This document shows positions 37,507-63,612 of a DNA stretch of 64,000 nt, piece after piece (positions within the stretch are counted from its first letter, which is position 1; every line of letters starts with the position of its first letter). A program made the translations under genes and the position numbers. Source of the stretch: Pseudomonadota bacterium. Lineage in GTDB: Bacteria; Pseudomonadota; Gammaproteobacteria; SURF-13. The notes below the pieces were generated by a model, which ran no database searches, was not told where the DNA came from, and was given only the letters and a program-made list of their open reading frames with translations. The stretch spans positions 1 through 64,000 of the forward strand of contig JAQBXX010000005.1 of NCBI GenBank assembly GCA_027624315.1, in the 5' to 3' direction.

Positions 37507-38316
37507 TCAGCGTCCAAGCATGACTTCCAGCACCAGTTTGGTGCCGGAGTAGGCGAGCATCAGCGCAAAAAACCCGGCCAGCGTCCAGCGTATGGCGGTG
37601 CGTCCGCGCCAGCCGAAACGCCAGCGCCCCCACAACAGCGTGGCGAATACAATCCAGGCGAGAAGGGAGAGAATGGTTTTGTGCGCGAGATGCTGGGAGA
37701 AAATATTTTCCAGAAACAGAGCGCCGCTCAGCAAGGCCAGGCTGAGCAGCGCAAAACCGACCCAGATAATCTGGAACAGCAGGTCTTCCATGGTCTGCAA
37801 CGGCGGCAGCGCGCGGATGAATCCGCCGGGATGTTTGTGGCGCAGATGCGCATCCTGGATGGCAAACAGCCCCGCCTGCACCGCGGCGATGCCAAGCAGG
37901 CTGTAGGCGAGAATCGAGATCAGGATATGCAGGTCCAGCCCCTTGAAGCCATTGCTCGTCGCGAGCAGATGATGGCTGGGGAATACGCTTCCGAGCAGCA
38001 GGGTGAGTGCCGCCAGCGGCAACAGCCCGATGCCGAGATTTTCCACCGGTTTGACGAGCGCGGTGAGCAGCAGTAGCAGTGCAATGAGCCACCCGATCAG
38101 CGAGGTGGCGTTGAAAAAGCCGAGATTCAGCCCATCGGGTGTGATGATCCAGCGATACAGTTCGGAGGCGTGCAGGCCCGCCGCTACCAAGCCCAGGGCG
38201 ATCAGCCCCAGCTTGACGGACTGTGTCGTGGCCGCACGCGACAGGCGCAGGGCGAGCAACAGCCCGGTCACGAGATAGAGAATGATCGCAACTACACCGG
38301 TCATGCTGATATTCAT
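37507..38316 (-). CDS. ypjD: YpjD/CcsA-like integral membrane protein
   Basis: 269 residues with about eight transmembrane segments. The cytochrome c assembly (CcsA/CcmC-like) domain covers the C-terminal two thirds, including GLDLHILISILAYSLLGIAAVQAGLF with a conserved His. Possibly linked to haem handling, but its role is not established. The start ATG 38316 uses AGAGGTG in the end of the neighbouring hairpin element as a likely ribosome-binding site. Confidence 0.87.
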   Translation of the reverse strand: MNISMTGVVAIILYLVTGLLLALRLSRAATTQSVKLGLIALGLVAAGLHASELYRWIITPDGLNLGFFNATSLIGWLIALLLLLTALVKPVENLGIGLLPLAALTLLLGSVFPSHHLLATSNGFKGLDLHILISILAYSLLGIAAVQAGLFAIQDAHLRHKHPGGFIRALPPLQTMEDLLFQIIWVGFALLSLALLSGALFLENIFSQHLAHKTILSLLAWIVFATLLWGRWRFGWRGRTAIRWTLAGFFALMLAYSGTKLVLEVMLGR

Positions 38317-38318
38317 TA

Positions 38319-38468
38319 GGGCACCTCTAAAAATCCGCTAAAGCCACGATGGCCCGTTGGAAGTGCGCTTAAAATGCGGGGCCGCGAAGCGGCAGACTAC
38401 CTGTACACTGCGCTTTTTCGCGCATTTCCGCCTTGCCCTCGCGTCTTGATCGAATTTTTAGACGCGCC
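38319..38468. repeat. 150-bp long-hairpin element, copy 1
   Basis: The left arm from 38319 and the right arm ending 38468 are complementary over about 55 nt at roughly 70% (TCTAAAAAT and GGAA.TGCGC blocks). The apex holds GGGGCCGCGAAGCGGCAGACTACCTGTACACT (38378-38409), which itself begins with a GCCGC/GCGGC hairpin. The same 32-nt core, 30/32 identical, lies in the element at 63453. It fills the divergent ypjD-nudJ spacer. Not coding. Confidence 0.8.
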
Positions 38469-38508
38469 TATTACTCATATAGTCTACGTTTTATGCTATT
38501 TTTTGTCC

Positions 38509-38955
38509 ATGAGCCAGAAGCCGCACCTTACCGTAGCCGCCGTGGTGGAGCAGGCAGGACGTTTTCTCATTGTGGAGGAAGAAGCCGATGGCCGGGTGGT
38601 GTACAACCAGCCCGCCGGGCATCTGGACGAGGGCGAGACGCTGGTGCAAGGTGTTGTCCGCGAAATGCTGGAGGAAACGGCGTGGAATTTTCAGCCCGAG
38701 GCCATCGTGGGCATTTACCGCTGGAGCAGCCCCGTCAACGGCGTTACCTATGTGCGCGTGTGTTTCCGCGGCCGCTGCCACGGGCATGAGCCTGAGCGTG
38801 CGCTGGACAGCGGTATCCTGCGCGCACTCTGGCTGACGCGCGACGAGGTGCGCGCGCTCGGCCATCAGTTGCGCAGTCCCATGGTGTTGCGTTACATTGA
38901 TGATTATCTCGCGGGCATGGCCTATCCGCTCAGTCTGATTACTGAACTGGCATAG
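38509..38955 (+). CDS. nudJ: Nudix phosphohydrolase NudJ
   Basis: The Nudix box GHLDEGETLVQGVVREMLEET (about residues 37-57) is present, with Ala instead of the usual Gly after EET. The family hydrolyses nucleoside or thiamine-type phosphates such as HMP-PP. ATG 38509 (MSQKPHLTVAAVV) gives 148 residues; the track start at 38374 lies in the hairpin element. The gene order nudJ...mnmA-hflD matches that of enteric bacteria and supports the name. Confidence 0.9.
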   Translation: MSQKPHLTVAAVVEQAGRFLIVEEEADGRVVYNQPAGHLDEGETLVQGVVREMLEETAWNFQPEAIVGIYRWSSPVNGVTYVRVCFRGRCHGHEPERALDSGILRALWLTRDEVRALGHQLRSPMVLRYIDDYLAGMAYPLSLITELA

Positions 38956-63452: not shown

Positions 63453-63612
63453 TATACATAGCGCCCTAAATCTACTGCGCGTCTTTGATGCGGGTGCGTG
63501 CGGTGCTCGGAATCCGGGGCCGCGTAGCGGCAGACTACTTGTACACTCCGGTTCCTGCGCTCCGCCGCCCCCGCCTCAAAGCCGCTCGCTACGATTTATG
63601 TCGCTATGTATA
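63453..63612. repeat. 160-bp long-hairpin element, copy 2
   Basis: TATACATAGCG-C-C-TAAAT at 63453-63471 is repeated inverted at 63594-63612 (17/19). The pairing continues inward through CTTTGA.GCGGG blocks. The apex carries GGGGCCGCGTAGCGGCAGACTACTTGTACACT (63516-63547), 30/32 identical to the core of the element at 38319, although the arms differ. It fills the mltD-gloB spacer. Confidence 0.8.

Follow-up and report, generated by a model that had tools for sequence, protein, structure and literature searches.

What is the long hairpin that separates a ypjD-like gene from the gene of a Nudix-type hydrolase in this bacterial DNA, a structured RNA or a mobile element? We analysed the window (the whole stretch of 64,000 nucleotides) together with its own genome and those of relatives. 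The hairpin (copy 1) and a second one in the same window (copy 2) are, in our judgement, very probably non-autonomous MITEs. They would belong to a superfamily of Gammaproteobacteria in which the tip of the hairpin is conserved and strand-specific.

Two palindromic elements with one apex

The pattern GCCGCGWAGCGGCAGACTACYTGTACACT has exactly two matches in the window (38381-38409 and 63519-63547), with 0 expected from shuffles even when 3 mismatches are allowed, and both matches lie in long hairpins, as expected from the proposal that two hairpins of the window share an apex. In copy 1 the apex consists of the mini-hairpin GCCGC-GAA-GCGGC (38381..38393, plus strand), a tip variant of which further variants occur in G003 and G026, followed by the 3' half of the conserved tip, AGACTACCTGTACACT (38394..38409, plus strand). 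In both copies GGGGCCGCGWAGCGGCAGACT stands in place of the 5' half of the tip.

Copy 1 is a palindromic, MITE-like element of 151 bp (38319..38469, plus strand; TIR GGGCACCTCTAAAAATC / GAATTTTTAGACGCGCC), whose ends AGGGCACCTCTAAAAATC...GAATTTTTAGACGCGCC are of IS5 type and whose predicted fold has an energy of -60.9 kcal/mol (z -2.5). It is flanked by a target-site duplication, ATTA at 38315..38318 and again at 38470..38473, the latter being replaced by ATTG both in G002 and at the G001 empty site. In G001, which belongs to the same genus (YpjD 81% identical), the gap between ypjD and the Nudix gene is GATATTCATTGCTCGATAGTC and the element is absent; in the window genome the same gap reads ...CATTA-element-ATTACTCATATAGTC. 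With this empty site and the 4-bp ATTA duplication, copy 1 is an insertion. An orthologous copy (98%) is present in G002, and an exact-pattern scan of the genome contigs returned the orthologous copy as the sole match. Relatives with a copy-1-type TIR occur in G003, G004 and G026, where they are flanked by 4-bp target duplications of their own (TAAA, TGAA, TTAA, TTCA, ATAT).

Copy 2 is a palindromic element of 156 bp (63455..63610, plus strand) with a second type of TIR, TACATAGCGCCCTAAATC...GATTTATGTCGCTATGTA, TA at both flanks and a predicted fold of -88.3 kcal/mol (z -5.9). A BLAST search with copy 2 found about 13 places of this type in its own 1.43-Mb genome, 83-96% identical. When the copies were aligned with their flanks, the common ends were TACATAGCG...CGCTATGTA, usually adjoining TA. 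The copy-2 TIR is TACATAGCGNCATAAATC, and a target duplication of TA is plausible. Copy 2 is missing between a lytic-transglycosylase-like gene and a gloB-like gene in G001, G003 and G005, which thus have empty sites. The element boundaries match the coordinates of the original prediction: copy 1 extends over 38319-38469 between the ATTA repeats, and copy 2 over 63453-63612 if the flanking TA is counted.

Since the ends of copy 1 differ from those of copy 2, the window holds two element types with a common apex. The idea of diverged arms around a constant loop therefore needs amending: the apex is indeed common, but the arms are two unrelated TIR types and not one drifting arm. Both elements have what marks a MITE, namely a small size (151 and 156 bp), no transposase gene, palindromic ends, empty sites and dispersed copies.

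Two side observations concern elements of these types. On one contig of the window's genome (C27:10887, L053), a lone copy-2-type TIR, CTATACATAGCGACATAAATG, adjoins a different GC-rich hairpin; neither a second TIR nor a transposase was found when we looked for them nearby, so a full IS was ruled out, and the TIR is perhaps a relic of another element with the same ends. Furthermore, several elements of G000 and G004 (L047, L050, L052, L303 and L304) contain, within one arm or both, another GC-rich module, GCACAGGGATGTGC...GGAGGCAGGATGCCGGGAGCGACC, and a related module lies in the tip of L313 (G027).

The insertion of copy 1 bears on its neighbours. It occupies the interval between the ypjD-like gene on its left (cytochrome c assembly protein, PF01578; 37507..38316, minus strand) and the Nudix-type hydrolase gene on its right (38509..38955, plus strand; the product being named from a sequence motif alone), in keeping with its description as filling a divergent gap. 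That it supplies the ribosome-binding site of ypjD likewise holds: GAGGTG in the left TIR (38322..38327, minus strand) is the likely Shine-Dalgarno sequence, lying 5 nt from the ypjD ATG at 38316 when read from 38327 to 38322, and the G001 empty site contains neither GAGGTG nor anything similar. A promoter scan found a minus-strand site resembling a promoter just outside copy 1; if it is used, the hairpin would consequently lie in the ypjD leader. Together with the Shine-Dalgarno-like sequence, the insertion may have placed a long hairpin in the 5' leader of ypjD. On the other side, the Nudix-type frame stays open into copy 1, back to an ATG at 38374 (38374-38955, plus strand); its true start is likely 38509, which is conserved in the empty-site genome.

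Spread of the tip and diversity of the ends

The GCCGC/GCGGC mini-hairpin had been put forward as the conserved core. It is present in both copies, but it is a local variant confined to G000, G002, G003 and G026 among the genomes examined here, and the widespread core is CTCATKTACT-N(2-5)-TGTAMACTSCG, at the centre of 120-165-bp palindromes. Searched as CTCATNTACT-N(1-6)-TGTANACTSCG, the core is found in 55 of the 369 Gammaproteobacteria genomes (reversed control pattern: 0 in every genome searched) and in about 1/180 other Pseudomonadota. With 2 matches in 2.9 million viral contigs and none in the phage collection (query used), a phage origin was rejected. The search for further copies that had been suggested thus succeeded at both levels, with the roughly 13 copy-2-type places in this genome and the 55 core-bearing Gammaproteobacteria. 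A covariance model built from 43 tips matched 19 places in the window's own genome, 66 in G324 and 41 in G026; most genomes that lack the exact core gave no match. In the window, copy 1 is a weak match (16.2 bits, E 0.012) because of its extra mini-hairpin. Some matches on contig C1 of G324 lie about 115-135 bp apart (1330419/1330535, 1818805/1818929/1819064 and 2660672/2660794) and look like tandem copies of the element.

About 100 further copies were fetched and their arms extended outward from the tip, which yielded palindromes mostly of 120-165 bp. With a simple threshold, the outer 24 bp of 106 palindromes fell into 36 TIR clusters; as a few singletons are TIRs already known whose ends were extended too far, a figure of about 30 TIR sets is safer. 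Between clusters the TIRs are no more similar than shuffled sequences (0.438 vs 0.425), whereas the tips are nearly constant, a constancy that is partly fixed by the search pattern, although the T-T mismatch and the paired changes described below were not selected for. ORFs called crudely place 57 of 76 copies between genes, and no clear orientation bias was evident.

How did one tip come to sit between so many different ends? A separate hairpin module may have inserted again and again at the apex of unrelated palindromic MITEs that already existed. The presence of the same core within about 30 TIR sets would suit this, as would the behaviour of tip variants: tips appear to have been exchanged, since L083 and L093 of G026 resemble each other in their arms but differ in their tips, and the GGGGCCGCGWAGCGGCAGACT variant of the window recurs in G003 and in G026 elements with other TIRs. 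Arms and tips also harbour other hairpin modules, as in the tips of G099 and G219, where another extra hairpin, CCCGTATATTGGG, occupies the position of the mini-hairpin. However, the core grades into covarying arms, neither a clean module boundary nor a tip-less parent MITE came to light among the copies collected by their core, and we consider repeated entry of a module rather unlikely. In a superfamily that keeps its tip, recombination could have supplied new sets of TIRs, or these could have co-evolved with transposases as the latter changed.

A probably conserved folded strand and its relation to sX9

In an ungapped alignment of the 43 tips, covariation amounted to 0.437, compared with 0.157 ± 0.019 in shuffles (0/500 as high) and at most 0.198 in slid versions of the alignment. 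The check by covariance model proposed for the arms thus gave strong compensatory change in the tip stem. Columns 13-39, for example, pair as GC 22 / CG 16 / AU 4 and columns 19-32 as UA 23 / GC 19, while the internal loops TCAT/ACTSC and T-T are fixed between the stems, the T-T mismatch being retained in 76 of 88 tips. In the arms, pyrimidine-pyrimidine mismatches are far more frequent than purine-purine mismatches (580 vs 82). A covarying stem combined with constant pyrimidine internal loops suggests that a folded single strand has been conserved. The data point to constraint on a single strand, RNA and ssDNA giving the same covariation signal; G-T pairs exceed A-C mismatches in the arms only modestly (193 vs 138), and RNA is therefore not clearly preferred over ssDNA. 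The original prediction was to be given up if no further copies existed or if arms lacked compensatory change; as further copies and strong compensatory change are both present, it survives on either count.

The strand-specific fixed mismatches (580 vs 82, with T-T in 76/88 tips) would also be expected if an enzyme acting on folded strands, such as an HUH nuclease, an integrase or similar, recognised the tip of ssDNA and thereby moved or copied the element. In addition, the mini-hairpin of the window contains GCGAAGC/GCGTAGC, a type known for forming very stable mini-hairpins in DNA. Yet the TIRs and the short target duplications suit DDE transposition, and we hold movement through a single-stranded hairpin to be improbable.

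A conserved strand could also belong to an RNA, and one branch of the tip-bearing family is in fact the Rfam family sX9 (RF02228). Its model aligns over its full length with elements of the copy-2 type, matching end to end from the tip ATGTAC...GTACACTCCGGTTCC through the entire 3' arm. Five copy-2-type siblings of the window's genome (on C30, C11, C17, C41 and C37) score 46.7-56.9 bits, above the gathering cut-off of 44 bits, as does one copy in G087. Copy 2 itself, the tip of which is altered by the mini-hairpin, stays below the cut-off with 33.9 bits (63532..63602, plus strand), and copy 1 gave no match to RF02228 even with an e-value threshold. The link becomes visible only with such a threshold and with single copies as queries: at the gathering threshold, Rfam reported a tRNA alone over the window and nothing near either copy. 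Weak matches to miRNA families were set aside as presumed artefacts of the palindromes. At the sX9 locus of Xanthomonas sacchari there is also a left arm, now decayed, that is similar to the copy-2 one (CGGACGGTGCTCGG). We searched the 5' arm by eye for a promoter from which sX9 transcription would begin at the tip, and found none.

Could the elements then simply be genes of an sX9-type sRNA that serves the host under regulatory selection, with the palindrome as the fold of the RNA and its duplication incidental? The sX9 RNA has been described as a Xanthomonas sRNA (Schmidtke et al., as cited in PMC9029176) and is listed among the most abundant annotated sRNAs (PMC9029176), several sX9 genes of X. 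campestris are reported to respond to copper by induction (PMC10924375), and the Rfam cut-off for sX9 is exceeded by one branch of the family. On the other hand, copy numbers range from 0 to >60 across genomes, positions vary even within a genus, neighbouring genes have no consistent orientation, and TIRs and target duplications are present, all of which makes a host-serving gene very improbable. We give no more credence to covariation without selection, in which palindrome arms correct each other by recombination and tips are alike as the copies are young: some members are indeed recent (copies 95% identical), but correction would erase the internal loops, which persist across genera while the pairs change, and the TIRs are unrelated between clusters.

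Mobility, known systems and the meaning of the tip

The mobility of the elements is best explained by a DDE transposase recognising their TIRs. The original prediction of a structured RNA or a hairpin-recognised mobile element is thus supported in outline by the copies, the empty site and covariation, but recognition for movement would act on the TIRs. IS5-family transposases (NF033580, PF13340, PF01609) are encoded in G004, G137, G096 and G280 between TIRs of similar style, and these TIRs (TAGAACCGATCTCAAAATTG, CTAGAAGCGGTCTCAAAATTC, CTAGGTTCTGTTGACGTTTC) resemble those of tip-bearing elements (TAGAACCCATCTCAAAATGG, CTAGAAGCCATCTCAAAACC, TAGGGCGTGTTGACAATTC). A close case is the IS of G096, CTAGAAGCGGTCTCAAAATTC, compared with elements of G087 (CTAGAAGCCATCTCAAAACC) and of G096 itself (TTAGAACTCATCTCAAAAATC). 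From this resemblance in TIR class we infer that IS5 transposases were the movers, acting in trans on the TIRs. A DDE_Tnp_1 or related IS5 transposase was not found in the window's own genome, and no full-length IS was found that carries precisely the TIR of copy 1 or of copy 2; the copies found here may therefore be relics that are immobile now.

We further infer that the tip has a function. It may have been retained because it works when folded as a single strand; the likeliest form of this strand would be a transcript through the tip and the 3' arm, which in relatives would be the sX9 RNA; that a transcript is the reason for its retention we regard as almost an even call. The folded strand could help the element to persist or spread, or could act on nearby transcripts.

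A single pair of TIRs defines an ordinary MITE family. The elements described here share with bacterial MITEs bearing IS5-type TIRs their size, the lack of genes, the TIRs, short duplications, a mostly intergenic position and many copies, but differ in that a conserved apical core spans elements with unrelated TIRs. In ERIC and Correia elements we know of no sX9-like tip. Judged by their descriptions, these too are hairpin-forming MITEs able to affect nearby transcripts (PMC10969869, PMC4853749), but have one TIR set each. REP/RAYT systems also consist of dispersed hairpins; REPs, however, are 20-40 bp long with a tagged end (PMC3733652), compared with 120-165 bp, TIRs and target duplications here, and an identity with REP elements was ruled out by length and ends. 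The QMITE1 and QMITE2 elements of Coxiella burnetii offer what may serve as a precedent for sRNAs as MITE copies, as the annotated sRNAs CbsR3, CbsR13 and CbsR16 proved to be copies of these MITEs, which are set apart from ours by their sizes and features as described (PMC5896051). Compared with our elements, the sX9 model is restricted to the tip with its 3' arm and takes in neither the palindrome nor the TIRs nor the mobility, and it misses the core subtype of copy 1 and many other carriers. In the literature searched, we found no paper tying sX9 to a palindromic mobile element and no description of this tip-sharing family among MITEs; searches with the core sequence returned unrelated papers alone.

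The elements were mobile in the past and are widespread; MITEs of this kind are known, and the fixed tip with interchangeable ends is new. Tentatively, and with the balance leaning somewhat against it, we suggest that a single hairpin 'payload' is common to dozens of unrelated IS5-type TIR sets throughout the Gammaproteobacteria and that its folded strand aids the spread or persistence of the carrier, sX9 being the transcript of a modular selfish element and not a host regulator. To tie sX9, an unexplained but abundant sRNA family, to mobile palindromes would alter the reading of sX9 annotations. MITE families are usually defined by their ends. That rule is broken here, as the ends are exchanged and the middle stays, and how a non-coding hairpin might serve a transposon becomes a testable question.
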